DNA from: Tetradesmus obliquus
Taxonomy: Eukaryota > Chlorophyta > Chlorophyceae > Sphaeropleales > Scenedesmaceae
Direction: 5' to 3'
Length of the DNA stretch: 64,000 nucleotides
NCBI GenBank assembly: GCA_030272155.1
Contig: CP126206.1
Coordinates: forward strand, 2,480,001 to 2,544,000
The notes beneath the pieces were generated by a model. The model had not been told where the DNA came from and did no database searches. It saw only the letters and a program-made list of their open reading frames with translations. Of this stretch, positions 5,111 through 45,371 are shown piece after piece (position 1 is the stretch's first letter; each line of letters starts with the position of its first letter). The position numbers and the translations under genes are program-made.

Positions 5111-5120
5111 AGGTGCTCAC

Positions 5121-6402: not shown

Positions 6403-6410
<8 letters not shown>

Positions 6411-6439
<29 letters not shown>
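6411..6439 (+). repeat. (CTG)n in a gene B intron
   Basis: A run of CTG following CAGCAG, making a potential hairpin, in the intron between exons 6256-5900 and 6693-6525. Copy 2: 43971-43999. Confidence 0.85.
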
Positions 6440-6685: not shown

Positions 6686-6886
6686 GGCAGGTCCTGCAAC
6701 GTGCAATACAAAGAGAAGAATGCACAGCGTCAGTTGCCCTCTGACTCAGGTTTTGAACGTGACTCTAACACAGGGCAGGTCCTGCAAGGTGCAACCCCAA
6801 TGGCACCGTGCACAGCGTCTGTTGCCTGATGACTCAGGCTTGATCATGCCTGACACTCGGCAGGTCCTGCAAGGTGTAACCCCAAC
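6686..6886 (-). repeat. Triplicated intron-exon junction ahead of gene B exon 6693-6525
   Basis: The plus-strand string GGCAGGTCCTGCAA occurs at 6686, 6774 and 6859, each within an 85-88 bp unit. The first is the real acceptor of the exon. The other two lie in the upstream intron and repeat the acceptor and the first codons. Copy 2 is at 44246-44446. Confidence 0.7.
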
Positions 6887-8140: not shown

Positions 8141-8202
8141 AGCATGTGCAGCAGGGTGCAAGCGTGGCAGGCGCAGCAGGGTGTCATGTGCTTTCAAAGC
8201 AG

Positions 8203-8249
8203 TAGCGTCAAGTTGACGCTACGCTTGGAGACGTGCTGCGGCAGCACGT
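8203..8249. repeat. Two 19-nt palindromes between head-to-head gene fragments B and C
   Basis: Sequence TAGCGTCAAGTTGACGCTA (8203-8221) and ACGTGCTGCGGCAGCACGT (8231-8249) are each perfect inverted repeats around a single central base. They stand between the last B-derived repeat (minus) and the first C exon (plus). Copy 2 is at 46228-46274. Confidence 0.8.
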
Positions 8250-8353
8250 CATGATGCATGCGCACGTCGTCAGAGACAAATCCGGACCTGCTTGCACCAG
8301 TTAACCACGTGTGCCCGTTATTCGTCCACTCATGAACGTGCATGCTTTTGCAG

Positions 8354-10468: not shown

Positions 10469-13400
10469 CCCGTGGGGAGTTGCTATGCTGGGGCACATGG
10501 GCAAATGGCACCATCAACTCTGAGAAACCTCCAATACCCAGCTTAGATTTCGAGCAGAGAATTCTAGCCATTGGCTGCGGCTCTTCGCACGTGTGCGCTT
10601 TGACAGAGAGCAACATACTTGAGTGTACCGACGGCACAAAGGAATGTGGTCAACAATGTGTCGTGCCTGGTAATTGGACGCCCCCCGTGGGCAAATTCAA
10701 GGTTACGGGAGGCGTCAACCACACGTGGTAAGCTCAGCAGTGCTTATGAGGCTTAGGCAGTTCTTGAATTAACAGAAGATCAGCACAACTTTAATAAAAT
10801 TGGCAGGAATAAAGTCAAAAAATGCAGAGTGAGACTGGCAGCTAAGACGAGATACATGCGAGTGCATGTGCTCACTTATGTTGCTTGATTTCGTGAGCAG
10901 GGCATTTGCAGTGCGTAGGAGCGACACCAAGTTTTGTTGATGCAGCTGCGGCAGCTGCAACGCTCGGTGGTCAGCCTATTTGGCAGCAACTGAGCTGTCG
11001 TCTCCTGCACTGATGCATATACCAAATATTAGCCGTTTACGGCGTTTATACTAGCCGGCACTGCTAATAGGGCGGCTGGGTGGGTGTAGCTGTTGTGCCT
11101 ATGGGGTTCAGGTGGGTCCCTGCTTTTAAGGGCAGGGCCCTGCCTTGCTGGGCCTCTTTCTTGCTGACGCCTTCGGGCAGCAGCAATCAGTCGTTTTTGT
11201 TTGACTGTACATTTGGAAATACATGCGGCTGCGTAGTGGAGTTGTCACCAACGACCGGGACGACAGCACGCGTGTAGGAGAAATGAGCGCGGAGGAGACT
11301 GCAGCTGAGGTCGCAGCACTTCGTAATGAGCTAGCTAGGTTAACAGCTGAGGTGGCCGCGAAGTCAGCTCAGCCGGAGCCCGGCAGCTCCTCATGCTCCC
11401 GGGTTAGGCCCACGGTGCAGATTGCTGAGCCAGTGGACAACGTGGTTAACATCACAGAGTTCAGTGGCATTGTTCATCAGCGCACCAATCCCGTGCAGCG
11501 GTCAGCAGTGGCCCCAGACACTTGCTGCTTGCTCGACTTGGAGTGTGAGTCGGGGCGCATCCGGGCAAGCAAGGCTGGGCCAGCTGTCGTCAAGGAGTAC
11601 GATGAGACAGTGGCTCCGGCGCTTTCCTACCTTTATGACGCTCAGCAGGCGCTGGAGCAGCTGATTCGGGCTGCAGACATTCCTGAAGCTCGCAGGAAGT
11701 CCCTGGCAGTGATAGCAGCAGCGCAGAAGGCCGTGCTGGACTTTCTCACTGAGCGCCATGACCTTCTGGTGGCCAAGGGCGAGTTCAAGCACGACCCCAG
11801 CCTGCTGCATGCTCTGGAGCAGGGTCTGGCTGGAGTGGAGGGCTTGCCCATTCAGAGCGGCGGCCGTGTGCAGCAGCACCTGGAGAAGCTCGCCTCAGCC
11901 CGTGTTTTAGCGCTTACCAAGCAGTCGGCCAAGCAGTCTGGAGGTTCCAGCCGTGGGGGCACAGGCAGTAACAATCCTCCAGCTTAGTTGTCAACAGCGC
12001 TCTCGGCAGGTGGCTGTTGTTACTGGGGTCAGGTGTAGCAGCAGTGGGCGTGGCTAAGTTGGAGGGTAGCAGGATTTGCAGCAGGTGCTGTTGTTTTTTC
12101 CGGTAACGCTCCTTGTGTGGCATGGGCAGCCAATGTCAGCAGGGTAGTTGGCACGATTGCTGCCAGGTGTTGCGCAGCTCTTAGTTGGAGTGGAGGTTCT
12201 AGTGTCAACTTGCATCCAGACTTAGCACGCTGGCCACTGATGCTGTAGTGCGTGGCTGCTCCAGTGTTATATTGTTCTCCTGTTGTCTGCCGCTCCCGTT
12301 GCGATGGAGTTCCTTTAGGCAGTTTAGGGTCCGCCGAGCCCTTCCCCAGCAGGGATCAAGGACAGTGTTTCATTGCGCAGCGCGCTCGTTGCCCTGTTGG
12401 TGTGAGTTGTTGTGTTGGGTGTCATTCTGATGCAGCAAGGCAAAAGTATAAATTAGCCGTTTACGGCGTTTATACTAGCCGGCACTGCTAATAGGGCGGC
12501 TAGGTGGATATAGCTGTTGTGCCTATGGGGTTCAGGTGGGTCCCTGCTTTTAAGGGCAGGGCCCTGCCTTGCTGGGCCTCTTTCTTGCTGCTGCCTTTGG
12601 GCAGCAGCAATCAGTCGTTTTTGTTTCCCGCCCGCCCACCCCTCTTCTTCTGCTGTTGTGGTGGTGTTGAGGGGGGCTCGGGTTGGGGTTGGCGAGCCCC
12701 GTTTCCCAAATGTAACAATTCATTCTGATGCAGCAAGGCAAAAGTATAAAACATTGTTTTGTTATGTGCATGGTCTACGCGGCCGCGGCACGGTGGCCAT
12801 GTGCGTCCTTTTGTTCAGCAAGCCAGTTTCTGCGCTGGTTGTCAGCACATTGAAGGCGCATGAGGTATCATCATCGCCACGCACGTCGCCTTCCTTAACT
12901 TTTGCGGGGTTAAGTGTAAAAACACCACGCATGGCTCACTCACTCACTCACACACTCACTCATTCACTCACCCGCTCGCTCACTCGCTCACTCACCCACT
13001 CACCCACTCACTCACTCTTTTACTCACTCACACACTCAACACGTGCTTGCTACAGTTGCAGGTTGTGTGAATCACACTTTGTGCCAGACCAAGGCGCATG
13101 ATACATAACAAGGAGTTCAGCACATCATTACCCTCTATTATCACCGAACTTCCGCATGGTCAGGTTGTTGTTTCATATGTGTAGCTTAACAAAGAATAAC
13201 TCTCGCATGCGCCACTGGGCATGCACCACAAGGCAAACGCACCACAAACCTGAAACTGTGCCGAAAAAATGTTTGAAATGAGCGGCTCATTCACTAAGTG
13301 CAAAAAGTGTTTGCCGTTTGCCCTGATTTGCGATACATGCAGCGCATTGAGTGGTGACGGCATTGTTGTTTGCTGGGGAGACAACTCGTTTGGCCAGCTG

Positions 13401-14781
13401 GATATGCCTACTGCTGAAGGCAGCGCAATCACCAAGGTCACTGATATTGCCGCTGGAGACTACTTCACCTGGTGAGTGGCCCCGTGGCTGACGGCATTTC
13501 AGCTAATAAATAAAACGTCGCCTTGCATATGGATGCAAGTCATAGTCTCCATGTTTGTGAAGACAGGCATCAAATTGTCCAAGCATCAATCCAACATTCT
13601 CTTGTAGGTAAACATGCCATGTGCATAAGCAGTTGTTGACGCTTGTCGTTATTGTTGATAATGCTAATGCATCAGTTGAGGCTTGGTTGGCAAAGTTTGA
13701 TTTGTGTGGACTGGGTGCTTGATTTGTGGGCGGATCAGGTGTAAGTCGCACTCCACAAACAACATTGTTGATGGAAAGAAGCGACCCTCCTCTGTTGCCT
13801 TTTCAATCATCATTGCTCCTAGTTCCGTTCAGACTAAAAGCACGTGTGTTGTGGCCTCTGCTGAACCTCTCAGATGGTGGCGATGCGCACTGCCATGGAC
13901 TACCTCTCCAGAACATTCACCCACAGCCACCTTCTAATTTAATACCTGGCAACACCTGATCTATGATTCTATGCAAACATCTGAATTTTGTTCTCCATGT
14001 TGTTTCCTGTTTTGTTCGTGCAGTGCCATCAGCAAAGATGCCCAGGTATTTTGCTGGGGCACGGACACTGATGGGCCGCTTTTGCAAGTACCGGAAGGCC
14101 TAGGGCTGGGCTCATTGGGCGGAGGTGTTGAACAGATCAGTGCCGGGTCTGACCACACATGGTGAGCACCCTAGCTAATACCGTATTATGGTATCAGCTT
14201 TCACCCAGACGCCATCTGGGAGATATTGCCATCACCCAAAGCTAACTGATTTTCGCAGCCATTAAATGGTATTGAATCAGACGCGTATTGTTTTGCCTGT
14301 TTTGCCTGTTTTGCCTGTTTTTGCCTTTTTTAATACTTTTGTCACATTTGCAGCACACGTGTCAACATGGTGATCAACCAGCGGCAGCTGCCCCTATGCA
14401 TACTGCTCATGTTTATATTGGACGTTGAACTGGCTCATGTTGTGGTGTTGGTGCTGCAGTGTCAGGAAGCCCAACGGCCAGGTCACGTGCTGGGGCTACT
14501 GCGCCACTGGTGCCTGCAACATACCACGGCCAAGCAGAGCTACACCCCCTTCGCCCCCTTCGCCCCCTTCACCGTCTCCAGAAATTGAGCCTAACCCATC
14601 ACCTTCTCCGCCTCCTCCATCACCGTCTCCACCAATTGAGCCTAGTCCATCGCCGTCTCCGCCTCCTCCATCACCGTCTCCACCAATTGAGCCTAGTCCA
14701 TCGCCGTCTCCGCCTCCTCCAACACCGTCTCCAACAATTGAGCCTAGCCCATCGCCTTCTCCGCCTCCTCAAGCACCGTAG
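10469..14781 (+). CDS. Gene C, 3' half: RCC1-like exons and Pro-Ser-rich tail
   Basis: Exons 10469-10727, 13343-13471, 14024-14161 and 14460-14781 are intact, GT-AG and phase-matched (2-2 after the first). They correspond to gene A exons 25-28, with motifs LLCWG, HTCALSGDGIVVCWG, FTCAISKDAQVFCWG and HTCVRKPNGQVTCWG. The last exon, unlike genes A and B, continues into four repeats of SPSPPPPSPSPPIEP-type sequence (51-bp coding period) typical of hydroxyproline-rich wall glycoproteins. Only four complete blades remain, so the propeller is incomplete. The first intron holds a mobile element. The joint to the 5' half is unresolved. Whether it is expressed is unknown. Confidence 0.65.
11029..11202 (+). 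repeat. Repeat A1 of the split-repeat element
   Basis: Left 174-bp terminal repeat, matched by A2 at 12453-12626. They diverge at a handful of positions, for example GGGTGGGTGTAG versus AGGTGGATATAG. Confidence 0.85.
11223..11987 (+). CDS. Gag-like coiled-coil ORF of the split-repeat element
   Basis: A 254-codon open frame from ATG 11223 to TAG 11987; a second ATG at 11283 precedes the coiled coil. Residues about 24-48 (ETAAEVAALRNELARLTAEV) form a heptad coiled coil. The rest is mostly helical, with a single double Cys and a basic, Gly/Ser-rich end. There is no zinc knuckle, protease or polymerase motif. It sits between A1 and B1 of the element and has the highest coding character of any single-exon frame in the window. 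A gag or ORF1 role is inferred from position. Confidence 0.6.
   Translation: MRLRSGVVTNDRDDSTRVGEMSAEETAAEVAALRNELARLTAEVAAKSAQPEPGSSSCSRVRPTVQIAEPVDNVVNITEFSGIVHQRTNPVQRSAVAPDTCCLLDLECESGRIRASKAGPAVVKEYDETVAPALSYLYDAQQALEQLIRAADIPEARRKSLAVIAAAQKAVLDFLTERHDLLVAKGEFKHDPSLLHALEQGLAGVEGLPIQSGGRVQQHLEKLASARVLALTKQSAKQSGGSSRGGTGSNNPPA
12423..12750 (+). repeat. Right end B1-A2-B2 of the split-repeat element
   Basis: B1 12423-12452, A2 12453-12626, a GC-rich spacer, and B2 12721-12750. B1 abuts A2 exactly, which is the arrangement expected of split direct repeats. Confidence 0.8.
12935..13040 (+). repeat. (CTCA)n-rich tract in gene C intron
   Basis: Imperfect CTCA/CCCA tetranucleotides over about 105 bp, downstream of the split-repeat element. 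Copy 2: 50960-51065. Confidence 0.85.
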
Positions 14782-20677: not shown

Positions 20678-23600
20678 TCATAAAGGGGTGCCAGGAGACG
20701 GCGGCCGTGGTATGTTGCAGGCTCCAGTGGCGCAGTAGCCCCAGCAAGTCATCTGTCCATTCTCTTTCCTCACGCTGCAGCAGTTGGTTGTCAGCAAGGT
20801 TCAGCGGTCAGTGTGCATCAAGGTGTCATCGTTGTAGCGTGCTCATAATGTCTGATCCAATGCATTCCAAGCAGCGTTTGGTGCAAGCCTGGACCGCATG
20901 CACACAGCAACTGACTTTGTGGCTAAGCAAGGATGGCAAGCTGTGTGATCCTTGACAATAACACAACGAAAATTGTTTCAAAAATGCGGCAATTCAGCAA
21001 GCGGATGCTCATCAAGCATGATTGTTGCCGGCAGTTACGTGTATGGCGCCTCCGCCTCCGCCCAGAGCCCCCACCGCAAGGCTTGCGTGCACGGTAAATC
21101 AACAGGCATTGTATGTTTTGTGACCCTTGACAGTAATACACACATTTAACAAATTGACCATACAGCGATTGGTTGCTCACCAGACATGATCGTTGCCGGC
21201 AGTGACGTGTGTGGCACCACCGCCTCCGCCCGAAGCCCCCACCGCAAGGCTTGCAGGCACGGCCATCTGCTGGCCTGGGCCTGTGTCTTTGCCCCAGCAT
21301 AAGACTTGTGCATCCTTGTTGATGCCACTGCAGCAGCGCACAACACAAGGAGCAGGCATGATATGTGGGTTTATAAGGCTTGCAGGCACGGCCTAGGCAC
21401 AACCGGGCTGACGGTGTCTTTGCCCCAGCAAAAGACCTGTGCATCCTTGTTGATACCACTGCAGCCATACACAGCACAGGGAGCACACTGTATAGGTGAG
21501 ATTGAGGGCAGCTCGTTGATGCGAGGGCGCTGTTAGGCTATACTTCTGTTTCAGTTCTGTGGATCCAACGTGTATGGCAGTGTTTGACAAAACATGCATG
21601 CCATGCACACGTGCACATGCACACGCGCCTCAGGGAAGCGTTTCACGTATCAGTGGTAAATGATAATGTACATAGCCCCCTGTTGGTCCCAAACATTTCT
21701 TGTGTTGTAGGACGAAGCAGCAACAGCCCCAACGATACAGCAGAGAGCGACTGCAAAACAAACACACGTCGTAGCAGCAGACACGTCCACGCCTCAAAAA
21801 CCTGACACAAGCAGCTACTGCAGCAGCTGCTGCTGCTGCTGCTGCTGTTGCGTGTTGCTTGATATGACTTTTGGTGCTTGAAAAATTGAATGAGCTACGC
21901 GTGGTGTGTTAAGCTTGCCACCCGCGACTTTTGGTGCTTCAGGTTCAGTGGCAGGTGTACCTGTACCTCTCGTTATAGGTAGCTACCGGCAGGTTAAGCA
22001 TCAGCGAGTTATCTTCATAATCATCACTGTAAACACCACTATAACCCCATGCCTCACCAGGTGAAGTAGTCTCCTGCTGCAATGTCGCTGACCTTGGTGA
22101 TGGCAGGCGCGTCGAGCTGGTTGTATGTGTTGCCACCCCAACACAGCACACCGCCGTCGCCACTCAAAGCACTGCAAGCAACATCAGCCAAAGGAACAGC
22201 AGAAACAGGCTGGCAGAGTGATTGCAGGCGTGTGGTCTGGGCGATGGGCTGCCACCAGCACAGCACACGTCGTCGCCACTACAAGCGCTGCAAGTAGCAT
22301 CAATTGCTGCATGCACCAGCAGTAGCAAAAGAGCCGCGTCACGATTTGGAACGTGTGGTTTCGAGATGACAGCTCACACGAATACTACACGATGCCATTC
22401 TGTCTGTCTGGCCGGCGCAAGCTGAAACATCCACTTCACGAATGATACAGTCTTGAAAAGGCTTTTGCTCCCTTCTTACCATGTGTGGTCAACACCAGCA
22501 GTCACTTTGAAGTCAAAGCCGACCTCAGGGGCCTCCCAGCCGGGCGGCACAGTGCACTTGGCACCGCATGGCTGTGCCGGCATGGCCCCAGCCGTACAAA
22601 CGATCTCGTATGGGAGGCCGGTGCCCACAACCGCACACATGTGGTTCCTCCCGCAACCAATTGCTTTGACTGTGTAGTCAGTTGTGAAGACCGAGCCGTT
22701 GCTTGGGATGAAGCCATCCTGCCAGTTGGCTGTGTTGCCCCAGTTGCCCCAGCAGCGCAGCCGCTGGCCTGCAGGGAACCACAGATTGCAAGCTGTGAGT
22801 GAGTGAGCGAGTGAGGGAGTGACTACCCAGACAGCTCTGCAGCTCCTAGGTAAGTGGTGGCTTAAAGAGGGTGTGTGGCCAGGGCCGGCGCCTCTGGGCT
22901 CCACGCCCTCTACCTGTGGTTTTAAGCTATAATTAGCGTTGGATGCTGATTTCGCGCAAGCTTTGGTTTCTAGGCTTTACATGCAAGTTGCTACCCATGT
23001 GTTGCTTTAGCTGCCCCAGCACGACAGCCGCTCGCGCTTGCATGAAACAACCAGGGTTTAACAACAGAGTTTAGGTTGGGATTGGTGTTTAGGACGCGTT
23101 TAGCGCATAGTGTTGGAATTTAATGTGCCGACGGCACTGCCTTGAAGCTTGCCCCGTTGCCCTTCTTCTGCGGCAGTGTTGTCTCGGCAGCGCGGCAGCG
23201 CGGCAGCGCGCTGCCTACAAGTTATTGCAGTGAAGTACTAAAGCAGCAACTACAAGACGCCTTAGGACTTCCACATCACTTGATTATATGTAGCAGCGTC
23301 GCGCTGCTTCCTGACCGGGCTCACCTGTTGTGATCGCGCACGTGAACACCTCCCCAGCGCACATCTGGATGGCCCCATCTGTGCCATCTAGCAGCGCAGC
23401 GGGCGGGTCGACCTGGCCGAAGCTGGTGTTGCCAAACTCGCTGGTGCAGACAACGGTGGTGCCGGAGGGCCCGGGGATTTGCGCGACCTGCAGGGGCCGC
23501 ATATGTGGGGCATGATGACCTCATGCACTTTTGCCACTGCCATGGAACTGCATGTTCTCAATATGCTTGGAAGACATGATGCTCAAAGCAGGCAGCAGCG

Positions 23601-23800
23601 GCCTACTAAGCGAAAGCAGCAGCCGCGACCGCCTCCAAATCAATGCAGTGGGTACTCACCTGGTAGCAGTAATGATATTTGCTGACAGCAAACGCTCCTA
23701 GTATGGTTTCAAATGGAGGGGAGGCTGTCACAAAGTCCGGCCGCTGCCCCCAGCACCTGAGACGCTTGGTGTTGAGCTCCTGTCCACAGGTGTAGCGGTA
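20678..23800 (-). CDS. Gene A exons 23(end)-28: seven-blade RCC1-like propeller with Cys pairs
   Basis: Seven repeats follow one another: GYRYTC/LRCWG, YHYCYQ/VVCTS, VFTCAI/LRCWG, NHMCAV/IVCTA, DHTCAL/VLCWG, YFTCGI/VLCWG and DHVCVR/MTCWG. The first Cys of most repeats is split by an intron at the same place (TG|T or TG|C), and the second precedes Trp-Gly in five of seven. Five blades are textbook RCC1_2 motifs (HTCAL..G.V.CWG); paired cysteines suggest disulfides and so an extracellular location. The terminal exon 20774-20678 ends NIPRPPSPGTPL and TGA. Exons 26 and 27 are phase 2-2, so one can be lost without a frameshift. Confidence 0.75.
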
Positions 23801-26800
23801 GCCAGCTGCCAGCTGCTGAACCCTCAGGTTGAGCGTGGGAGGGTCGGTGTAATCAATCACAGCAGTAAATCCTGGTTTGATGGCTGCTGATGTGCTGAGG
23901 TCTCCTCCCTTATCACCTAGACGGCCTCCGTCTGATATCAGTATTGTGCCGGTTGTACCGCCGCGACGTGCGATGCCTGCCGCGCGCGTGATGTAGGGGT
24001 CAAGCATCGTGCCATTGCCGCCGCCCTGCACGCAACAGAAGCAAAAACAACAACAGCAGTAGAAAGTAGTAATGTGCAGGTCACTGTAGTCGGGTGTCTG
24101 GCGCCCACCTGAGGACAGGCTGGCGCGTTGTGACATAGTGAGTTACATTGAAAAGAGGCCATTGACGTCCGCACTTATCCGGTAAGTCTTGAAGACACTG
24201 TGTGGGACTGCCAGACAACGTGCCAGTGGCGCAGCAATTGCGGCATCATGCCGCATCCAGTGGATGCAGTGGCTAGAGCATTGCAAGCTCAGCTTAGCTT
24301 GTAGCAACCGTCTACTGCACTGCATCCTTTGAACCCTGCTTTGAGGAGCCACATAACTGTCACAGCAACCGGGCCAGTTAGGACAGGGCCGCCCTGCGGC
24401 ATAAGACTGTCTTCTGCAAGATCAGTAGTTGTGGCGCATTGCAACGGTTGCAGCATATGCTCCTACTGTTTTTATTGCTACAACTGCATGTTGTTGTTGC
24501 TGCTGCTGCTGCTGCCCAGGCCTACATGTGTTGGGGTGACCTGCAATTACAATGCCACCTTGAAACTTGCTGCCCAGCTGCCACTCTCACCATATTCAAT
24601 GGGAGGATGGTTGTTGCTGCATTCACGTTTGTCGAACGTACAGGAAAAGACAGCAGGCCAAACGATCCAAACACCCCGCCATCGATCGCACTGATGTCAT
24701 CGCAAGCCACCAGCAGGCCCTCATCGGGCGGGATAAAGGTCATGTCTGACACCCGGCAGGCCCTGCAAGTGCAGTTTCATGAGACACAACAAGCACCGAG
24801 TCAGCTCCTTGCCGCACCGCCAAGAGGCAGCAATGCAATAGTATCGAGCGTTGACGCAGCAGCGGTACGTTCAACTGCAAATCGTCTGCCGCAACCGGTC
24901 ACCTACTGGAGCGCCACGCACATGTGCTACAGTGTAGCGCAGGCAGCAAGTTGTGCAGCAGCGACACACCCAAGCACTACAGACGCACCTGCCCGGCGTT
25001 GAATAGTCCTTGGCATTGAAGGAGCCGGTGTTTGGATCAGGCGTCAGCACCGACGGGTCGTGCCACCTGATCTGACCCATCTCAGTGTACGCCACGTACA
25101 GCGCAGGCACGGAATTCGCGGCGATATTCGCGGCATCCACTGCCAGGTAGGTGGGTTTAAAGGTGTTCACGTTGCGATTGTTGTCGCCGCAAAAACCGAA
25201 CACACCGGGCTCATAATGGTCAACATAGCCATTGCTGCGCGTGTACTTCCGCACACAACCATTGCGCGAGTCGCTGATGTAAGCCTGGAAGGTATCCGCG
25301 TCCAATGGGTCCGTGTACACAATTTCGATGTCAGTGGGGTTCCAGAGGGTTGCTAATGTCGCAACTGGAAAAAAGTATATCTGGCAGCCGTAACTCCCTG
25401 GCGTATTCTCACAAGGTGAAGTATCGGAGCAGCTGCCCACTGCGTCCACGGGCGGCGGCGGTGTGTTGCTGCCCGGCGGAGGCAGCTGTATCATCCGCAC
25501 ACAGTTTTGATCTGCAGCGGAAAGCAATATGAGGGTCAGCAGCTGCAGGGTGTTGTACATGTGTCTTGATTGAGCAGTCGTCGTCTTGCAACGCACAGTC
25601 AGGTGCTCAGCCAGGCTGGCAGTATATGGCAGTTCTTGCTGCATTATCAAGTCATGCTCATCCTTGATGAAAAGCTGCACACAATTAGCTGCCACAAAAG
25701 CACGAAAGCCGCTGGTAGTGTGCAGCCACACGATGAGTATATAAGCTGCAAGCAGTTTCACGCCGGCAGTCGACAGCATACACTTGATTGTGCAGATGTG
25801 TTTGTTGACATGAAAGGTGGCGCCAATCGTTGTTTGTTGACATGTACATGTTTGTGCTTGCTGGTGCAGCAGTATGATTGAGTGAAAAGGGACAAGGAAT
25901 CTCAGCCAGCTTAAACTACGATATACGGTCATGCAAGAATCCTACTCACCGTGGTCGGTCACGTAAATCTTGTTCGTCAATTCATCCAGCGCGATGCCGC
26001 GCAACGACCCGGGACTGCTGCCACTGCCGCTGAAGTCGGCAATTACGTCATCGGCTACCACATATGGGTTGGCTGACGAGGCATCAACGGCCGGTAGCGT
26101 CTGGAATGACAACGTCAGAAGCAGACACATGCTGTCACCGTGTTGTGAAAGGTGCATGCTTGCAACTGCTAATGAGCAATCCCGTGTTGATTGGATCAGC
26201 TGCAGTTGCGCCTGTTGATGTTTCTGCCAGAAATGCAGCATGTGCACCAAAAGGTTGTTCGTAAGTGTTGCATCAGTCGCACTGTCAAGCTGTTGAAGCG
26301 CAAACAACATGCCTCTATACGTGCGCCACAGCCACACCTTCCGCACTGTGTTGTCGAGTGCCGTGTAGTAGACGGTGCCTGGATCAATGCCCCAGCTGTT
26401 TGTGCTCCGTGAAACCAGAGCCACAGGGACCGTAGCAGAGCTCAGCTCACCACGGTATCCACGCTTGAACGCTGCGGGCAGCACAACATGAACATGCCTT
26501 GTTGATACAATCAGTGCTGCCGAGTTAGTAGCTTTTGCATGACTGGGGAGCCAGTATGCTCACATCATAGCACTACCAGCTGCATGTGAACTGGTCTGTT
26601 GGGTTGCTGCTTAGCTGCTACTGAACCCTGCCTAGACAGTTGCTGCTTCATGAGCTGATCATCAAGGCTTGTACATGAACCAGCAGGTGCTGCTTCAACT
26701 GCTGCCATGCCCAAGTTGGTAGGCCATTGCAGCAGTTGCTGCATCAGCTGCTAATTAAACAGTTGTTGCAAAAGCCGGGCGGCCATGCCCTTACATGCAA

Positions 26801-29800
26801 GCACTCCTGCATCAGCGGCCGCATCGCAATGACTCACGTACACACTCATTCGGGACCCCAATGAACATGTTGCAGAGCCCATTCTCGCCTTGGGCCAAGC
26901 TGCAGCTTGACCAGTAGAGCCCGTCATTGAATTCACATGTCAAGCTGCCATTGGCAGGGCAAAATCCGCCGTATTCGTAGCAGGTGTTTGGCGGTAGGGT
27001 TGCCGCACAGCCTCCGACATCGCAGGCTGCAACAGCAGCAGCGGCAGCAGCGGCAGCAACACAGGGCAGGTATATACCATGTTATACACATACTCACATA
27101 TGCAGCAGCCGCACTGGTGCATGTGCAGTTGCTGCTTGTGGCTGCCAGCTTCCATGCTGCGGTAGCTGACAAAGTAGTTTTGTGCAGCTGTTGTGGCCCA
27201 CGGTGCTGCAACACTGTTTTGTGTGACACACAAAGTAGCTGACCAGTTGTCATAGTCCAACCAAGCTGACACAGCATGCCTACTGTATGTTGTGCTGTGT
27301 GCAACAACTCACTTGGACCAGCTGGGCTGGGACTGGGGCTAGGGCTGGGGCTGGGGCTGGGTGGGGTGCTTGGAGGGGGGCTGGGGAGGGCGGGTGGTGT
27401 AGTGCAGTTGCCGCTGCGGCAGATGCCCAGCGACCCTGCCTGCCGCCTTCGGCTGGCTGGTATGGTGCAGCTGCCTCCTTCGTTGATATTGCTGAAGCTG
27501 ATAGTTGCTGCTGTGGCGTTGCAGTCGGCCCGGCGGCATTCTGTGCTGTTGTATGCAACGCAGAAGTCTGCGTGACGGAGCAACAAGCGACAGCGGCAGT
27601 TATAGCAAGACATGCTAGCAAGAGCATGCACCAGCAGTCATTGTTCTCACACCCTGCATCATGCATTCAGTGAACCTGCTGCATACCTCAACATACAATT
27701 TGCAGCTGAGCTAATTCATGCAGGGCAACTGTCTATGCTGCCGTGTCAATGCAGCGCAACCTAAAGCGTGCGGAAACAAGCGGCACCACTTCATGCACAG
27801 CTAGCACGACTACGACCACAACTACACCCGACTCACCCACGCATTTCACAGCGTCTCTGTTCCACACGTATCCGGTCACACAACCGCATCTGTAGCCAGG
27901 AGCAAATGGAGAGGGCTGGCAGCTTCTGTCCACGGCAAATGCGACTTGTCCGCATGGGTTGGCGGCACATGCGGGGTCTGTGCAGCCGCTGAGCCTGTCA
28001 CTCCATGCCAGGCCCACTGTGCATTTGCATGCAAAGCCGGTGAAGGAGCCCGGAGCATCGCTGCAAGCGTCCTGTACTGTGTTGGCGATGATGTTGCAGG
28101 GCTTGTTGAAGCATGTATTGGCTGCGCATAGCCAGGCAAGCAGGCGAGCAGGCAAGAAATGACAGCTTAGTGACAGAAAGGTGAGCGAGCGTTGCGCTTG
28201 AGGCAGAGATTGCATGTCCTGTATGTATCAACAGCTGATGCAGCATCGTGTGCAGAAGAACATGATCCAGCCAACTGCCGATTGCTTTTCCAAGATGTAA
28301 TTGGTGCTCACCAATACAGGCCCCGTTCACCCAGGTGTACCGCGGCTGGCAGGTGCATGTGAAGGCCAGCTGTTTGGTGCCAGCAGCCCTCCGAGCGGCG
28401 GAGCAGCTGCCGTTGACAGCAAACTCAATGCTGCCACATGGGTTGTTGGAGCACACAGTTGCTGCAGGGCGGGTACAGATGCGGAAAATATCAGCAGGTT
28501 GCCACGCAAATGCACTGCATGTTGAGTCATCTGCAACGCATTGTGTGTGCAAAACAGTGTTGCTGGGTCATCTTCAGCGCTGCTGCATCCTCACAATGCC
28601 TAGCATGTCACCCATCATTGTGGCACAGTCAAGGAACCAGCTTTATATGACCAGGGCAGTAAGCAAGGTTAGTAGCATTTCACGAGAGCACATCACACCA
28701 TATTCACGGCTGAAGCGCATGCAGGCTTGCCTGAAACTAATTCCTCGGGTGTTGCATCTCAAAGCCACATAAAAGTGTATACTGCATCATCATGCTTACC
28801 TTGCGCATCACAGATTGCCGCGCGGCACGTGCCGTTGGCAATGGTGTTGCCGTTGCATGATGTGCCGTCCGGCAGGTTGATGATGGTGCATTCGCCGGTG
28901 CGAGGCACACATGTTGCATTCTGGCACGCGTTTGAGGCGGCGCATGGCGTCTGTCGTACGACACAGTAGTCTGCGGCAAGAGATATGCAGCCAGCAATGT
29001 ATGGGTGTGTACATGTTGTCGTCAGCTAGATGCAAACACAGCAGGCAGGGGACGCTGCTCAGCCGTCTAGTTGCTCTTTAGGCACAGCACCAGCAGCAAC
29101 GGCAGTAGCAGCAACGTCAATAAAGACAGACACATTGACAAATGCCACATCCCCCTGAATGTGATTGCTGAGCGCTTTGATGACAGTGCATGCATCCTTC
29201 AGCATCCTTCTTCGCAAGCCATGCCCTCTAGCTCACCTACTGCATTCAGGATGTTACCATTGGAGTCTGCCCTTTGCACAGACAGGCCAGGGCCGTACGG
29301 TGTCACCAGCAACATGCGTGCCGGCGACGCAAGGATGAGAAACTCCATCTCAAGAGACAGCAGCGAGCTCTCTGGAAAGCTTGATTTGAACAGCACCGCC
29401 TGCGTCTCTGTCACCTTTGGTGCCACTGCCCGAACGGTGCGGTTGCTGCTGGCGCTCGCCTCAGCCACTACTGCACCCCCGCTGCTGCCGCTGTTGCTTG
29501 GGGTGCTGCGCCGTGAGAGGGTTTTGAGCACCGTGGTTTGCACATTGGAGACGAGGTACCCTGCTGGGAGGCTCAGGGAGTTGCCTACTGATGACCCAAA
29601 TGAGGTCAGGGCTGCTGTGCTGCTGAGGGGGCTAGGAAAGCTAGCCACTGGGCCCTCCACACGGTAGTAGATGATGTATAGGCCTGCACACGTGACATTG
29701 GCAGCAAACAGCAGCAGCAGACAATATAATGTTTCAGTGGGCCAGTGGCAAAACCCTGGCTGCTTTGTGCACGGTATGGTAAGAGAGGCTCACAGTACCA

Positions 29801-32800
29801 CACGTTAACCAGTTGATCTTGTGCGCGCTTCGACAAGACAAGCGACAAGTTGTGCAGAACGTGAACATTGCCGATTTAAGAGACCAACAGCCGCGCATGC
29901 AACACTTGACCAGGTACGCCGTATGTGCCAACAAACCAGCAGAAGCTCTGCACTATACACCAGCAGTAGCGGCAGCTGCAGCAGCAGGAACAAAAGTAGA
30001 AGCTCTGCTCTGTACTATTGGCGCAACACTCACGTGCACATAAGCCACCAGAGCATGCACCCGGGGTTGATGCAGAGTAGTCACATGCTGTGCCATCTGT
30101 CTTGTTTTTGGAATTGCAGACGCCGGCAGCAGGCGGGCACAGCGACCCCTCAGGGACCAACAACTCCCGGCAGGAGGTTGCGCTGCACAACGCACTCTTA
30201 CATAAGTCTGCAAAACAGCGCATACAGCAGCAGCATCAACAACGGTAGCAGCAACAGCAGCATACACAGTAAGTGGTTGCCTTGTCCGTAATGGAGGAAC
30301 AGGAGTGGGCGCTGGCTATGGCGTTGCATTGCATGCGCACCGCTGCATTGCATGCGCCACAACAGCCCCACTTCCCCATTGCCCGTCGAGTTGAGTGGCA
30401 ACTGCACATGTCAGCAAACAAACCACGCGGTTCCGGCACGCCACCTGCACCACAAATGGAACGCCTCCACCTTTGCAGCCGCCGGCATCACGCGGGTAAG
30501 TCAGACAACACACATGGGTCGAGTTTGAAAAACACGTGTGCTCAATGCCGCACCTTTGCAAACGCCAGCAGCGCACATGCTTTCGTATCCCCTCAGCTTG
30601 CAGGGAGTGCCGTCATCTTTGCCGTCACATTTGGTGTCGCAGGTGCCTGTCAGTGCGTTGCAGACTTCACCGGCCTCTGTGTTGCACCGCACGTCGCCGC
30701 AGGTGGCAGCACACCTGCACAGCAAGATCAAGTTGGTATCAGCGCATTTGCATGGTTTTGCAGCAAGCCAGAGCGGCAGCTCAACACAACACATCAATGG
30801 CGACCTCTGATGCCTAAGCGATTTCTATGCATGTTTGTCTCCCAAATATTGCAGCCATCCGCCACAACCATCGCACCTGTCAGTCAGAGTAGCAGCCGGC
30901 CTGAAGGCATAAGACTTGAAAACAGCCCCGGTCCGCTGGTCAACTGCGCCAGTGCCTGTAAAGTTTCCAGCGGTGCCGTCTGCCAGCAGGTCCCGCGCCA
31001 TTGCAACGCCTGGCGAGGCCCCCGCAGGGAAGCTGCGGGAAAGGTAATTGGTGTAACCGGCATAACTGATGCTGCCTGTCATGCCCCAGAAGGCCTGAGG
31101 GAAGCCCCGCTGTTGTTGTGCTGCATCTGAGCCGCTGTTTACTGCGGAGCGGTCGCTGCTGAACAACACAATGGTGCGGCCAGGTGCGGTCTTGGGATCG
31201 TCACGGTACTTTTCGAACCAGCTTGGCCTCAAAGCGAATCGGCCGTCAGCAGTAAGCACCATGCGGCCAGCTTGCCAGTCCAGCTGCACACGTGACAAGC
31301 AGAAACATGCACATGCAAGGGTACAACAGTGAAGTAAAACAGCAGTTGGCAACAGAATAACGCCCTGCCATGTAAGAAGCAGTAAGGAAGTGAGGGACGC
31401 TTGATGGACGAGAGTTGGAAGGCATCAGATGTGCAAGATCAACTGAAATTGTATGTCACTGCACGTGCATACTCTTCTTCATGATGATGATGATGATGAT
31501 GATGATGATGTGCATACTCTTCTACCATGAGTAGATGGCATTTCCATGAATACGCAGTTATTTTTGAAGCAACAGGCAACTCACATTGTAATCGGTGTTC
31601 AGGAAGTCAAGAGAAGCACCACTCATGATGATGGGAGTTTCACCCGCAGAGCTGTCATCCCCAATGCTGCTGACAACCACAAAGGCGTGCGTTGACCAGC
31701 CTTGATAGTCGTCAAGGGATGGTGGGCCCACCGGGCACAGGTTTGGGTCGTTACATTTAAAAGTGACATTGTAACCTGCTGCTCCAAACAACAACGCAAT
31801 CTCAGGGGCTTCGTCACCAAAAGCGCAGCGGTTCTCCCGCAGGTATGGTGCCAGCACTAAAACACTGCCACGTGATGTTGAGCACTTCTGAGTTTGCTGC
31901 AGCTGCCTCAGAGGGAAGGCTGTGGAACCTGTTTCCAGAACAGAGGAGCCGGCGTTGCTTCTGCTGCTGCTGCTGCTGCTGCCAATAGTGCTGTGTGGCG
32001 GCTGCTGTGGATAATCTGTTGCCGCGACGACATCCGCTTGGTCTTGCTGCAGCAGCAACTGCTGCACCTGCTCTGTCAAGTTGTTGCTGACACTGCTGCT
32101 GTCAGAGGTATGTAAGTCTTCTTGCTGCTGCTGTCCAAGGCTGTACTGCAGCAGGCTGCGTGACCTCCTGCTGCTGCTGCATGGCTTGCCGTAGTCATCG
32201 GTGGCCAGGATCAGGCAGGGGAAGTCCTCCTGGGTGAGGAACTCAATGCGCCTGCAGCAGGGGGGCAGCAGGTGCAGTGCGGGAACAGTGCAGACCATGT
32301 GTTGCAAGACAAGAAAGCGAGCAGGGGAGCAGCAGAGGAAGATCAGGGGCATTGGGGCGCAGGTAGAAGTGCCAGTTTACGACATTAGCACTGCTAAGCA
32401 GCAGCCAAAGCCGCATGGGCAGCAGCGGAAGCAACAACAGCAGAAGCAAAAGCAAGAACAGTCTTTCAACGGCCATAATTTTCTCCACGCAGCCAACTTC
32501 CATGACCACCAGCCTTTACCTCTCAGTGACTTTTCTGACCGTGCCATTCTTGATCTTTGGAATGATGGATGTGAAGTTGTTGAAGGTCACTGCTGCCGGC
32601 GCCACTGTTGCTGCTGCTGCTGTCCCTGCATCACTCAGGCGCCGTCGCTGGCCGCCGCTGCCAGTTAGCCTTATCAGCAGATCATACATCTGCTGGGTTG
32701 CTGCCTCGGGCGTTGCGCCAGCTGCTTGAATCTCGTCCAGCTGCTCCTGTGCTGTGCTGACCAGATCGGCGGTGGGGAAGATCTGGATGAACACGTCAAA

Positions 32801-33662
32801 GTCTGTTGTGATGGCGGTGATGATGACTGTAGGATGGAAGCGGCAGGGCAGCGGCAGGCACAGTCTTCAAGCGTCAGCACGTTCCTTGTACGTGTCTAGT
32901 GTACATGGCCTTATTTTGGCTGATACCCAGTTCACCCACCTTGCGAGCTGACATCCCTGTCCAGCAAGCTTACATAGAAGTTCCTGTACACCGCCTCGTT
33001 TGTTTTGGGAAAGTCGACGAAAATGACGTTGGAAAACAGACCGTCGTTGGCATATCTGTCGTCGTGCACTCGCAGCCCATCATCAAACAGAGTGCCAAGC
33101 ACATCTCCGATGCCGTCCGTCGTGTTGCCTTTGCGGCCATGTAGCACAACTTGCGTGGAACCGTTCAGGCCGGCAGTGCTTGCAAAACGCGCTTTGAAGA
33201 TGACGGGTTCGGTTTGGCCCTGTGCTGCTGCGTCGATGTTGGCTGTCATGCCTACGCAAAAGCCGGCCTGGCACCTGCCTGCACATCGGCAGCAGCAGTA
33301 CGGGTGGCAAGGTCAGGGGTATACACATAACTTTCAGAAACACTGCCATTGACGTCATTTATCTCCCGCTGGCTGAACACATGTGTGACGCAACACAGTC
33401 CAACACAACACAGGCAATGTCATTTTGTACACAGCTCATCGCTGCTGCAGAGCTTTGCAGGCGAATCTGCATGCCAGAACCCCACGCCCCTACTCACAGA
33501 ACGCTCACCTTTCACAGGGCCATCCGTGCAGTTGGTTCCATCAGCCACAGGCGTGTAGCTGCATTTGCCAGCAGAGCAGCTGCCAGTCTGGCACACCTTG
33601 TCATCACACTTTGGGGGCGAGCAAGCCGGTGGTGGCCCTGGCGGTGCTGCAGCAGCAACAGT

Positions 33663-33720
<58 letters not shown>

Positions 33721-34653
33721 CAGCAGCGCCTGTGACATTTACGAAGAGTATCTTTACTGTGTTGTGACAACAACGTTAACATTGTGATGGCTTGCAAAAC
33801 GGTGTACAGTGTGGCATCAGCTATGCCCTCGTTAACCTGGTCAACCTGGGTCAATCTTAGTCAAATTGGTCAAACATGGTCAAACTTTGTCTAACTTGGT
33901 CAGACTTGGTGCATGCTCATGCATAACAGCACGTTAAGAGGAAAGCACCATTTCTTGCTCACATGCCGGGATGCCTGTGGTCCTGGTAGCTGCTGCTGCA
34001 GCGGTGACACTGACGGCACCCTTGCTGACGGCCCGCAGCCCATTGCAGACGCCAAACGCGCATCTGTTGGTGTTGATTGTCTTGGCAACACTCGTGAATT
34101 TGGGCAGCACCTGCTGTGCATTGCTGCCGGCGTATGCCAACCGCACGCTGAGCTGCAGCGTGGAACCAGCTGTGGAGCTGGCACCAGGCATCTGCAATGC
34201 AAGAAGTGCAGCCGCAGCAAACCCAGCAGGTGATTAGCAGGTGATGAAAATGCTGAATACACACACGCTGAGCTGCAAGGCAGAGCCACTTGTGGAGCTG
34301 ACACCGGGCACCTGCATTGCAAGCAATGCAGCGGAGAGTAACAGACCATAATGTGTTAAAGTCAGAAGCAAGACAGCGTTGCAGTTGCTTGTGGCTCTGG
34401 GTGTCCTGCAAGCTGCACATTTCCTGCAAGCCCTGCAGGGTTCCTGCAAGCCTGCAAGTGCCGCAGCATTTCCTGCAAGCCCGCATGGTTTCTGACAGGC
34501 AGCAGGCGTTTCAGTGCTTGCAACCGCTGCTTTCCTTGCACGCTCACTCTCACCAGGCAGAAGTGGCAGAGGATTCAACGGGGCAGCAATGCATGCATCA
34601 ATGCGTACAGAGTGTGTCAAGACGTTTCAGGTCAGAAAAACAATTTGAGAGCA

Positions 34654-34696
<43 letters not shown>

Positions 34697-36501
34697 CACA
34701 TAGAGCACAGCAGGTAATGCAGTTGCTTCCTGGCCTCTCACCGGCCCACATCCTGTGGCAGCACGTGCTGTTACATTCGCCTGCTGCTTCAGCGCCGCAC
34801 GCAGCCTGGTCATTGCGGCATTGATCAGACTCGGTCCGCAGCGGCTGCTGTTGCTGCTGCCGGATGCCCCAAGTGTGTAGTTGACAGCAAGCAGCACTGA
34901 AGGCAGCCGCAGTGCACATGCAGAGCTGCTGCTGTTGAGCGCTCCACCTGTTGAAGTGTAGTTTGCTGCAGACAGAGCACAACAACAACAGCAGCAGCAG
35001 CAGCAGCAGCAGCGGCGTCGGCAGCACAGGCATTCAACATGTGAACGGATGCTTGCGGGGTGTGCTTTGCCAAAAACTCACTGTGCTGTTATGACTGGTC
35101 ATTCTGCAGCTAGCAGATGCTGCGGCAACGAGCTGTGTCGTGTGTTGCAGCATGCCCAGCACTTGCTTGTCTCATCTGGCAGCAGTGCATGGTGGTTGCA
35201 GAGCTGCACTACTTTCTATTAGAATCGCTTGATGGAAAGCTGTGCTGCCTGTTTCATACAGGGCTGAGCTACGCAGCAAAAGAGTCATACCGCTGCTTAT
35301 GCTGCTGTTGTTGCAGCTGCCCCTGCCGCTGCTGCATTGTGATTTGAAGGTGGCTGCTACAGACTGAGTCCCCAACAAATCTCCGCTATTTGCAGATGTG
35401 CAGCTGCCAAGCCTCACTCCAACATTACAGGTCTAACCTGGGCAAGGGAAACAGAAGCAGCGCCCGCTGCCCTGTCCAGCCGGCAGGAATGTTACGCTGT
35501 TGTTGTAGAGACTGTCAGAGGCTGGAAAGAACAGCCTGCATGCTGGGGGCTTCACTGGGTACTGCTCTGTCTTCCAGCCTGGCACGTGGGAGCCAAACCC
35601 TGCCTTGCAGGCTGGCATTATACAGGATTTGGTTAGGGTGGAGGGAAAGTCAGCACATGCGGGAACACGACAGCAGGCAGCAGCAGCAGCAGCAGCCGTA
35701 GCAGCAGCAGCAGCAGCCGTAGCGTCAGACTCTGTGAAGACACTGTGAACATGCAGATGATGGATGATGGATGTCCCATTCCGGCTGCAGTGAGACGTTG
35801 AAACATGCCCCGCCTGCATGTGAGCTGCTGCACAGACCAGCGATCATGATGTGCTGCTGCTGGGCATGTTGCTGCTGCGTGCATTGGATTTGCCTCCCCT
35901 CTCCACATCATTCTTCTGCCTTTAGCACCTTTCAACAGCGCATTTGCATCACACATGCATTGGCACAACAAGTGTATCCCGAGGGCATTATAGATACTTC
36001 TTATTGATTCAGGCGCTGCCATGTGCTGCCATGTGCTGCCATGTGCTGCGGTACATGCTGCCATTTGCTGCGGTTACTTGAGTGCAGCAATGGTGCCGGC
36101 TGGTTGCTGCTAGAGCTTGCATGCGTCCAGAACTGGCCCCACAACTTCAACTATGCGTAGCAGTGTGCATTCAGTGGTAAGCTGCCGCAAATGCACGGCT
36201 GCTAGGATATCCAGCTTGTGCACTGCTACTGCAACTGCTGCTGCTGCTGTCCAAATGATGTTGCCAATGCCATTGGCGGTAATGCTGCAGGGATTTAAGC
36301 TACCCGGCGAAACAATCGTATGTAATGCCTTTGACAGCACTCACCGCAGCCCCTGCCTGCTGGCATGTAGCCATTGCTGCATGCAGTCGAGTTCACCGCT
36401 GCCACTTCCAGGCTCAAGTCCCCATCGTCATACGTAAGATCAGTACCGTGACATACTGCTAATATGCTAAATGAAAGCAGTAATGATGTTTGAAATCGCA
36501 T
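20678..36501 (-). CDS. Gene A: giant secreted mosaic protein (NHL-like and RCC1-like propellers, Cys-rich modules, caspase-like domain), 28 exons
   Basis: Exon model in transcription order: 36501-36345, 35611-35556, 35432-35291, 34965-34742, 34191-33963, 33646-33509, 33278-32940, 32823-32520, 32251-31585, 31283-30877, 30714-30554, 30207-30034, 29683-29237, 28970-28800, 28530-28312, 28121-27837, 27567-27313, 27026-26838, 26471-26338, 26100-25950, 25511-24989, 24762-24591, 24025-23660, 23487-23325, 22768-22480, 22171-22058, 21327-21181, 20774-20678. They sum to 6720 nt, stop included, and every junction is GT-AG with matching phase. Exon 2 and its junction with exon 3 are the least certain. The ATG at 36501 opens a hydrophobic signal peptide. 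No transmembrane segment is evident, so the protein is probably secreted to the wall or matrix. The full assembly is not a named family known to me, and its function is unknown. B and C are broken relatives of it. Confidence 0.8.
21000..21466 (-). repeat. Degenerate flanking duplicates of gene A exon 27
   Basis: Exon 27 (21327-21181) has a degraded copy upstream at about 21466-21380 (SGINKDAQVFCWGKDT, then stop) and one downstream at about 21090-21005 (SLAVGALGGGGGA and HVTAGNNHA, then TGA in place of TG|GT). The donor is lost downstream. Copy 2: 59025-59491. Confidence 0.7.
23660..26471 (-). CDS. Gene A exons 19-23: NHL/YWTD-like beta-propeller
   Basis: Exons 26471-26338, 26100-25950, 25511-24989, 24762-24591 and 24025-23660 encode repeated strands of NHL/YWTD type: TVYYTALDNTVRK, GIALDELTNKIYVTD, TFQAYISDSRNGCVRK, ALYVAYTEMGQIRWHD and a segment GTILISDGGR. 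An EGF-like insert with several Cys (CSDTSPCENTPGSYGC) sits in exon 21. These are the expected spacings for a six-bladed propeller used in ligand binding. Exon 23 ends with the first RCC1-like blade (GYRYTCGQ and LRCWGQ). Genes B and C carry relatives of parts of this region. Confidence 0.6.
26838..30714 (-). CDS. Gene A exons 11-18: row of Cys-rich EGF/disintegrin-like modules, one unknown domain, Pro-Ser linker
   Basis: Exon 11 (30714-30554) has CNALTGTC and CAAGVCKG motifs. Exon 12 (30207-30034) has 10 Cys. Exon 13 (29683-29237) encodes about 149 residues beginning LYIIYYRVEGPVASFPSPL, a domain I do not recognise. Exons 14 (28970-28800), 15 (28530-28312) and 16 (28121-27837) are EGF-like with CTCQPRYTWVNGACI and CGCVTGYVWN ends. 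Exon 17 (27567-27313) is Cys-rich and ends in a Pro-Ser repeat linker. Exon 18 (27026-26838) has nine Cys. Exons 12 to 18 are all phase 1-1 and divisible by three, the usual signature of shuffled extracellular modules. They act as a rigid, disulfide-bonded stalk in inference. Confidence 0.7.
30877..32823 (-). CDS. Gene A exons 8-10: helical linker and caspase/CHAT-like domain, apparently catalytically dead
   Basis: Exon 8 (32823-32520) continues with a helical stretch. Exon 9 (32251-31585) starts with a Ser/Gln-rich low-complexity segment, then SVLVLAPYLRENRCAFGDEA, a GYNVTF strand and HAFVVVSSIGDD. Exon 10 (31283-30877) has RTIVLFSSDRSA, SYAGYTNYLSRSF and a Gly-rich end. The order (layout of ALVLAPY, then a strand ending in a His-Gly-type turn, then a strand ending in a Cys-type turn, then GYSDYV) resembles bacterial clan-CD caspase/CHAT-like hydrolases. 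The expected His is Ile (SSIGD) and the expected Cys region is SSDRS, so it probably binds rather than cleaves. Inference from motif order. Confidence 0.5.
31481..31510 (+). repeat. (ATG)10 microsatellite in gene A intron
   Basis: Ten ATG triplets in the intron between exons 9 and 10 of gene A. Confidence 0.9.
32940..33646 (-). CDS. Gene A exons 6-7: Cys-rich module and choice-of-anchor-X-like beta domain
   Basis: Exon 6 (33646-33509) encodes a Pro stretch and a disintegrin/EGF-like Cys cluster (CDDKVCQTGSCSAGKC). Exon 7 (33278-32940) finishes that module with CQAGFCVG. It then encodes a beta-rich domain with VLGTLFDDG, a His-Asp segment and NDGLFSN, the pattern I associate with bacterial choice-of-anchor X domains (LG.L.DDG...GD..AGDG.Y). 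Both exons are phase 1-1. The family call rests on motif resemblance only. Confidence 0.6.
33664..33717 (+). repeat. (CAG)18 in gene A intron
   Basis: Eighteen CAG triplets (CTG in the transcript), just ahead of the acceptor of exon 6. It may serve as a pyrimidine-poor branch-to-acceptor spacer. Confidence 0.9.
33963..35611 (-). CDS. Gene A exons 2-5: N-terminal Cys/Ser-rich extracellular region
   Basis: Exons 35611-35556, 35432-35291, 34965-34742 and 34191-33963 encode roughly residues 53-269. Exons 3 to 5 share a loose pattern: a Ser/Gly-rich stretch, a short beta-like segment such as LQLSVRLAYAG, an isolated Cys, and then an Ala-rich helical tail. Several NxS/T sequons (NYTS, NSSR, NVTA) fit a secreted glycoprotein. 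I do not recognise the fold. The exon 2/3 junction (donor CCA|GTGAAG, acceptor GTTAG|ACC) was chosen because reading straight through meets a stop. The alternative reading from 35555 to about 35449, containing FLPAGQGSGRC, could be coding if the true junction differs. Confidence 0.55.
34260..34315 (-). repeat. Partial duplicate of the start of gene A exon 5
   Basis: On the minus strand an acceptor (TTGCAATGCAG) is followed by VPGVSSTSGSALQLS, a near copy of the exon 5 start (MPGASSTAGSTLQLS). A GTGTGT donor after 45 nt would allow in-frame inclusion as a small exon. Unproven. Confidence 0.5.
34655..34696 (+). repeat. (CAG)n in gene A intron
   Basis: About 13 to 14 CAG triplets downstream of exon 4 of gene A. 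Confidence 0.85.
36345..36501 (-). CDS. Gene A exon 1: signal peptide and start
   Basis: The exon begins MRFQTSLLLSFSILAVCHG, a basic residue followed by a hydrophobic core and a small-residue end, as expected of a secretory signal peptide. A Cys-containing stretch with a GYMPAGRGC motif follows. The donor is G|GTGAGT at 36344 and leaves phase 1. Exon 2 continues in phase with CKAGFGSHVPG, giving a motif like the Cys-rich ephrin-receptor-like/GCC2-GCC3 repeats. No upstream in-frame exon is needed. Confidence 0.75.
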
Positions 36502-44906: not shown

Positions 44907-45371
44907 TTACATTACATTACATTACATTACATGCTCCACTCAACGAGGAGTGGGAACCCCAGTCAGGAGCCAACGAGAGGCTCATAGGGGGAGGAAACAT
45001 CGAAGAACAACTCATCATCGTCCAAACCGTCAGACGACAACGCAGAAAAAAACTCATCAGCATCATCAATAGCTTGAGCAATAGCCTGAGAGGACAGAAG
45101 GACCTCAGGATCAGTGTCCGGGTGACACCGCATCAGATAGCAGCAGTGCACAAAAGCGGCCACCAAAGCAGGTGCCTGCTTCATAAAAGTGATCATGTCA
45201 TCGCCTGCTGGGTGACAACCAGCAATAGTAGCCCATGTTTGTGACGAGTCCCCGAAGGGTTCGAACAACATAGCAAATCGCTCGCGGACTGGTGCATAGA
45301 AAGGGCACTCAAAGACCATATGAAACTCATCCTCAACAACCTCAGACTGGCAGCCAGGGCGTAGGCACACC
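44907..45371 (-). mobile_element. 5'-truncated non-LTR retrotransposon (LINE) insertion, copy 2 only
   Basis: A 465-bp block absent from copy 1 (empty site between 7346 and 7347). On the minus strand it carries the end of a polyprotein frame, a short 3' UTR and a (TGTAA)5 tail (plus-strand 44906-44930, ATTAC x5). The frame has a C-x4-C...H-x4-C cluster (GVCLRPGC, EFHMVFECP), the zinc-knuckle-like C-terminus seen in many plant and algal LINE ORF2 proteins. No clear target-site duplication; the 5' joint has microhomology (GCGG). It interrupts gene B exon 21-equivalent. Confidence 0.85.
44963..45371 (-). CDS. C-terminal remnant of LINE ORF2 (reverse transcriptase end)
   Basis: About 136 codons to a stop at 44963. 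The N-terminal end of the open frame (MRAR) belongs to flanking gene B sequence, so no native start is present. The visible motifs are C-x4-C, EDEFHMVFECPFY and a long acidic C-terminus. Polymerase and endonuclease domains are missing because of 5' truncation. Confidence 0.7.

Follow-up and report, generated by a model that had tools for sequence, protein, structure and literature searches.

A tandemly duplicated gene of Tetradesmus obliquus predicted to encode a large, secreted, cysteine-rich chimeric protein with two propellers

The window analysed here is a 64,000-base stretch of contig C16 (C16:2480001-2544000) of Tetradesmus obliquus, in whose genome 104,662,953 bases in 17 contigs were searched. 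The window contains a minus-strand gene that extends from an ATG at 36501 to a TGA at 20678. The curated model of the gene has 27 phase-consistent exons with 6630 nt and predicts a protein of 2209 amino acids. All introns of the model are of the GT-AG type, and most of them have GTGAGN donors and GCAG acceptors. The model was built on splice sites, open frames, and the conservation of paralogues and was then curated by hand, with the replacement of wrong automatic introns, one of which ran through exon 8. The exon borders are therefore not independent of the paralogues. The first-pass annotation of this DNA had proposed a phase-consistent model of 28 exons and 6720 nt, of which the span, strand, phases, and multi-exon structure were retained, whereas the exon count and length were revised. 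The additional exon (21390-21458) is a partial duplicate of exon 26, which follows it, and belongs to a 90-nt direct repeat with 81% identity; its inclusion would result in 28 exons, 6699 nt, and 2232 amino acids. The duplicated exon is probably skipped, because its use removes a conserved cysteine of the following propeller repeat.

Exon 1 (36345-36501) contains the start codon and, judged by eye, a probable signal peptide. The cysteine-rich module of exon 2 (35438-35611) is followed by an N-terminal domain divided between exons 3 (34742-34965) and 4 (33963-34191), and by another cysteine-rich module in exon 5 (33509-33646). A stretch resembling the choice-of-anchor X domain is encoded by exon 6 (32940-33278), and the domain continues in exon 7 (32520-32826). 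A variable Ser/Gln-rich insert and the first half of a stretch previously described as caspase-like are encoded by exon 8 (31585-32251), and the second half of this stretch by exon 9 (30877-31283). Cysteine-rich modules in exons 10 (30554-30714) and 11 (30034-30207) precede a conserved domain without an assigned fold in exon 12 (29237-29683, residues 993-1141). One more module is present in each of exons 13 (28800-28970) and 14 (28312-28461), two in exon 15 (27837-28121), and one, together with a Ser-Pro hinge, in exon 16 (27313-27567). Exon 17 (26838-27026) encodes a cysteine-rich lead-in to the putative propeller 1, which is NHL-like and is formed from exons 18 (26338-26471), 19 (25950-26100, an NHL repeat), 20 (24989-25511), 21 (24591-24762), and the beginning of exon 22 (23660-24025). 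The rest of exon 22 encodes the first crinkly-type repeat of propeller 2, which continues through exons 23 (23325-23487), 24 (22480-22768), 25 (22058-22171), and 26 (21181-21327), all with matches to the RCC1 profile. The last crinkly-type repeat and the stop codon are located in exon 27 (20678-20774).

The predicted protein has a molecular mass of 230.5 kDa and contains 112 cysteines and 27 N-glycosylation sequons. Its N-terminus is hydrophobic and by eye resembles a signal peptide, and similar starts are present in the models of four distinct paralogues from the same cluster, designated A1, B1, B2, and A2. The protein has no strong internal hydrophobic segment, as the highest 19-residue Kyte-Doolittle mean in its 2209 residues is 1.42. 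The previous description of the product as secreted, mosaic, and cysteine-rich is supported by the sequence, and the protein is probably exported. The exons are collinear with those of the four paralogues, in the case of A2 only up to residue ~1342, and the core exons are also collinear with copies on contigs C1 and C12. The dN/dS ratios of exons 1-16, 17-21, and 22-27 are 0.16, 0.32, and 0.22 in the comparison with A1, 0.23, 0.28, and 0.29 with B1, and 0.19, 0.37, and 0.31 with B2. Judged from this range of 0.16-0.37 over three large blocks and three comparisons, the gene is under purifying selection. Single exons vary more, and exon 1 alone reaches 1.09 against A1, over 52 codons with a dS of 0.056.

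The gene is part of an array of ~38-kb units arranged head to tail (C16 ~2444510-2564000), which holds three gene copies, lies inside a larger cluster, and had gone unmentioned in the first-pass annotation. Two further copies of the gene are located 37,560 bases lower and 38,025 bases higher on the contig and differ from the analysed copy at 1 and 0 positions, respectively, in 15,824 bases. Both are intact over the 27 exons, and long blocks of the array are at least 99.88% identical. The tandem gene cluster is a recently copied one. One array unit in the window contains an extra 462 bases (44907-45368) that its counterpart in the window lacks, so the assembly did not simply place one sequence in the array several times; the difference itself may nevertheless be an assembly error. 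A CATTA-type repeat marks one end of the insert, which also contains a long minus-strand open frame without a Pfam family above cut-off; by eye, the insert resembles the terminal part of a non-LTR retroelement.

Several further pieces of the family are present in the window. The C-terminal half of another member (3411-7668, minus strand) is 94.6-99.0% identical, in blocks, to its B1 counterpart. Fragments of exons 9-12 of the same gene family are located on the opposite strand (8351-10413, plus strand); they probably constitute a pseudogene, because the copy of exon 9 has a stop and loses similarity in the middle of the exon. The position of the 3411-7668 member next to these opposite-strand fragments suggests a rearrangement breakpoint near 7700-8350. 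Scattered fragments of propeller-2 exons are found at 10477-14532 (plus strand). A 260-residue open frame with a coiled-coil-like start (11205-11984, plus strand) has no Pfam family above cut-off and by eye is perhaps gag-like.

The distribution of individual exons in the genome separates the core of the protein from its C-terminal extension. Exon 8 occurs at 10 places, seven of which belong to the C16 cluster; of the other three, contigs C1, C12, and C4 carry one each. Exons 20 and 22 each occur at at least nine places genome-wide, and nine of nine in both cases are in the C16 cluster. The core, residues 1 to ~1410, belongs to a family that is also represented on C1, C12, and C4, the last of which was seen over 3.3 kb. 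The similarity to the C1 and C12 copies ends at about exon 16, which encodes a 14-residue Ser-Pro run positioned about where the shared core ends. The B1 and B2 models have longer runs of this kind, and none was found in those of A2, C1, and C12. At the C12 copy, the tail of the exon 12 domain occurs several times (C12:2463081-2464785). The hinge and propellers look specific to the cluster, because no propeller exons were detected near the C1 and C12 copies and exons 20 and 22 are found only in the cluster. The simplest reading is that they look like an addition in the cluster lineage, presumably a gain rather than a loss elsewhere.

An alternative reading is that a core gene with its end near exon 16 or 17 was wrongly merged with a separate propeller gene downstream. 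No convincing propeller exons were detected in ~7.7 and 5.8 kb downstream of the C1 and C12 copies (best profile E-values 0.08 and 0.12), the A2 copy has no match past residue 1342, and exon 17 is followed by a TGTAA and an in-frame stop. However, both halves are collinear on one strand in four distinct copies (the analysed one, A1, B1, and B2), and the A1, B1, and B2 models have the same order and strand of the halves, with doubtful small exons in the B1 and B2 models. The splice phases run on across the Ser-Pro hinge, and the frames of exons 17 and 18 offer no upstream ATG before a stop, whereas those of exons 19 and 20 do. The TGTAA after exon 17 is not conserved in the paralogues. We therefore consider two merged genes unlikely, and the 27 exons are treated below as one gene.

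The available text of one report gives UGUAA for 66.4% of Scenedesmus transcripts (PMC1868727). No such TGTAA poly(A) motif is present between the stop codon and window position 19000, which counts against a single gene; of four copies scanned over 1.2-1.3 kb downstream of the stop, B1 alone has one. The TGTAA in the intron after exon 17 lies 43 bases past the exon, and failure to splice exon 17 would lead to an in-frame stop ending at 26812. A short form ending after exon 17 is possible in the analysed copy. It was rejected as a general isoform because the poly(A) motif is not conserved, being absent from the intron after exon 17 in A1, B1, and B2.

The comparison with A1, located at C16:2418781-2435712, exposed a divergent cassette that includes exons 17-21 and their introns (24000-27400, minus strand, borders approximate). 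The dS of exons 17-21 is 0.955, close to saturation, as opposed to 0.266 in exons 1-16 and 0.262 in exons 22-27. The five cassette exons have dS values of 0.60-1.12, and all 22 others have values of at most 0.47. Such a separation has a probability of 1 in 80,730 under free exchange of exons, with the reservation that neighbouring exons are not independent. The identity of the DNA to A1, exons and introns together, is 0.41-0.77 in 100-base steps within the cassette, and outside it, in 400-base steps, mostly 0.75-0.97; a single step, at 30600, falls to 0.67. The divergence of the cassette is chiefly a matter of DNA history, either exchange of the cassette or conversion of its flanks, and not of selection on amino acids, because the introns have diverged too and dN/dS is 0.32. 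Positive selection on propeller 1 was considered and is unsupported at this ratio.

An alternative reading is a cell-recognition or sexual-adhesion protein whose propeller variants decide the choice of partner. The change of dS between the cassette and both flanks, the elevation of all five cassette exons above all 22 others, and the divergence of the introns are consistent with that function. Nevertheless, the cassette dN/dS is purifying and gives no sign of positive selection, and conversion of the flanks is by itself enough to explain the same pattern, which makes a role in partner choice distinctly improbable. We speculate, with a similarly low expectation of being correct, that the cluster is a young variable-receptor system. 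The secreted scaffold would be conserved, the NHL propeller would be exchanged or kept diverse as a cassette, and conversion would preserve the similarity of its flanks; as a result, cells or coenobia might differ in their surface binding heads for self-recognition, adhesion, or defence.

The C-terminal region of the protein matches the Pfam family RCC1_2 with an E-value of 1.1e-27 (95.5 bits against a gathering score of 22) in four stretches. Its closest PDB entries are ACR4 (5.7e-19), the 'predicted protein' 7a0k (4.9e-18), which we take to be CR4-like, and BLIP-II (4.6e-17), with UVR8 weaker. Five strict C(X9-10)CWG repeats are present, and two more degenerate cysteine pairs were recognized by eye. 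According to the available part of PMC4617170, the C(X~10)CWG motif marks crinkly repeats, and such repeats are present already in single-celled algae. RCC1 repeats in general are frequent in the genome, where a search produced 96 matches at E-values of 0.001 or lower; none falls in the C16 cluster, whose repeats are split by introns. Propeller 1 matches the Pfam NHL family in four of four members, with a best E-value of 4.4e-6, and in the analysed copy with 17.7 bits against a cut-off of 20, and its profile had no PDB match up to E 1. Of the two propellers claimed in the first-pass annotation, the predicted C-terminal RCC1 propeller is thus confirmed by a profile above cut-off, and an NHL propeller preceding it is probable, with moderate support.

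BLIP-II is a secreted, single-domain bacterial protein with an RCC1-type propeller that binds a protein partner. Like the CRINKLY4/ACR4 receptor kinases (PDB 7a0j), in which a TNFR-like domain follows the crinkly repeats, the algal protein has an RCC1-like propeller whose repeats carry the C(X~10)CWG motif. In contrast to these kinases, it shows no TNFR-like domain after the repeats, no transmembrane part, and no kinase, and has an NHL-like propeller and a ~1400-residue core before the RCC1 propeller. Since ACR4 is the closest solved propeller, the gene could be imagined as a CRINKLY4-type receptor-like kinase of which downstream transmembrane and kinase exons had been missed. However, the last CWG is followed by about 20 residues only, and the models of the analysed copy, A1, B1, and B2 all end shortly after the last repeat. 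Below the stops, tblastx found nothing shared between the analysed copy and B2, A1 and B2, or the analysed copy and B1, and between B1 and B2 no more than dispersed fragments of 8-43 codons, which are in mixed frames and in some cases contain stops. A downstream kinase was rejected, as there was no convincing shared coding sequence below the stops, and a missed receptor kinase is very improbable.

The domain types of the core had been regarded as bacterial, with one stretch assigned to choice-of-anchor X and another to caspase-like peptidases of clan CD. The choice-of-anchor X model (NF041940) matches five of six members, with a best E-value of 0.0014. In the analysed copy, positions 2-22 of 37 are matched below the curated cut-off (16.1 bits against 25), and the assignment is reduced to a weak motif. 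In one member the unrelated MzrA model scored better (0.00016), which shows the noise level. Pentatricopeptide matches of the anchor-X profile in the PDB (0.0056) reflect similarity of the repeat type and were not credited. Peptidases of clan CD, such as caspase, gingipain, and clostripain, have a catalytic histidine in a His-Gly motif and a catalytic cysteine. The His-Gly is absent from the 'caspase-like' stretch in seven of seven aligned sequences and in the partial C4 copy, and no cysteine is near the expected catalytic place. The cysteines common to all are at 11, 30, 54, 60, and 247 in the numbering of the first sequence. Past the fourth of these, five of the seven sequences have only the shared terminal cysteine, and the copies on C1 and C12 each contain an additional cysteine, the position of which differs between the two. 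A profile of the seven sequences retrieved 16 sequences from the PDB, the best being RACK1 at E 0.11, and Pfam gave one family at 0.34 in one of the seven members and no peptidase family. The order of hydrophobic strands resembles clan CD by eye, but a secreted peptidase of the clan CD kind that carries accessory modules is, given the missing catalytic pair and the lack of credible Pfam or PDB matches, hardly tenable, and the caspase-like label was abandoned.

A bacterial or viral origin was also rejected on the basis of scans with two short patterns each, which could miss distant relatives, and the description of the domain types as bacterial is not supported. The scans found no relative of the anchor-X and 'caspase-like' stretches in the genomes of 84,980 bacterial and archaeal species, and none of the core stretches and propeller 1 in viral contigs. 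A single-sequence search of the PDB with the first 882 residues produced six FtsI/penicillin-binding matches (best 0.016) to a low-complexity insert, which were rejected. The cysteine-rich modules, as in exon 15, have only weak matches to RANK, factor Xa, and EGF, below cut-off. No published family with this domain order was found in a literature search of partial coverage, in line with the earlier statement that none was known. Overall, the earlier observation was partly confirmed and is largely real.

Based on the gene model, its paralogues, and the profile matches, we propose that the locus contains one gene for a secreted, N-glycosylated, cysteine-rich chimeric wall or matrix glycoprotein, a reading to which we give slightly better than an even chance. 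The protein would be exported, with its core placed within the cell wall or on the outside of it. The Ser-Pro hinge, presumably O-glycosylated, would join the core to two heads, the NHL-type propeller and a seven-repeat crinkly-type RCC1 propeller, the latter probably held by disulphides between the cysteines of the C(X9-10)CWG motifs. Partner proteins or glycans at the surface may be the ligands of the propellers. Tandem duplication together with exchange or homogenisation of segments would generate variants that differ most in propeller 1.

Hydroxyproline-rich glycoproteins form the walls and matrix of Chlamydomonas and Volvox, as stated in the available text of PMC10762512, and that of PMC11839794 mentions extensin-like chimeras from green algae. 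The predicted protein resembles such algal glycoproteins in its probable secretion and its Ser-Pro run. It differs from them in the two propellers at one end and in the shortness of the hinge in the analysed copy. The accessible part of PMC11839794 lists KAF6261957.1, an entry from Scenedesmus sp. NREL 46B-D3, with two peptides, for the maternal cell walls of Scenedesmus obliquus 633, and describes it as a protein of 2214 amino acids and 229.4 kDa with a predicted signal, no transmembrane helix, and an EGF-like domain. Its similarity in size to the protein predicted here (2209 amino acids, 230.5 kDa) makes it a lead only, since size alone proves nothing.

If the proposed reading is right, the gene shows how a green alga can assemble very large secreted proteins from modules: the family core, the Ser-Pro hinge, and a pair of propellers, of which one is of the type found in a surface receptor of land plants. 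The multiplication and variation of such genes would be illustrated concretely by the near-identical 38-kb copies and by the divergent cassette. Little is known about the wall glycoproteins of Scenedesmaceae, among which the protein is a candidate.
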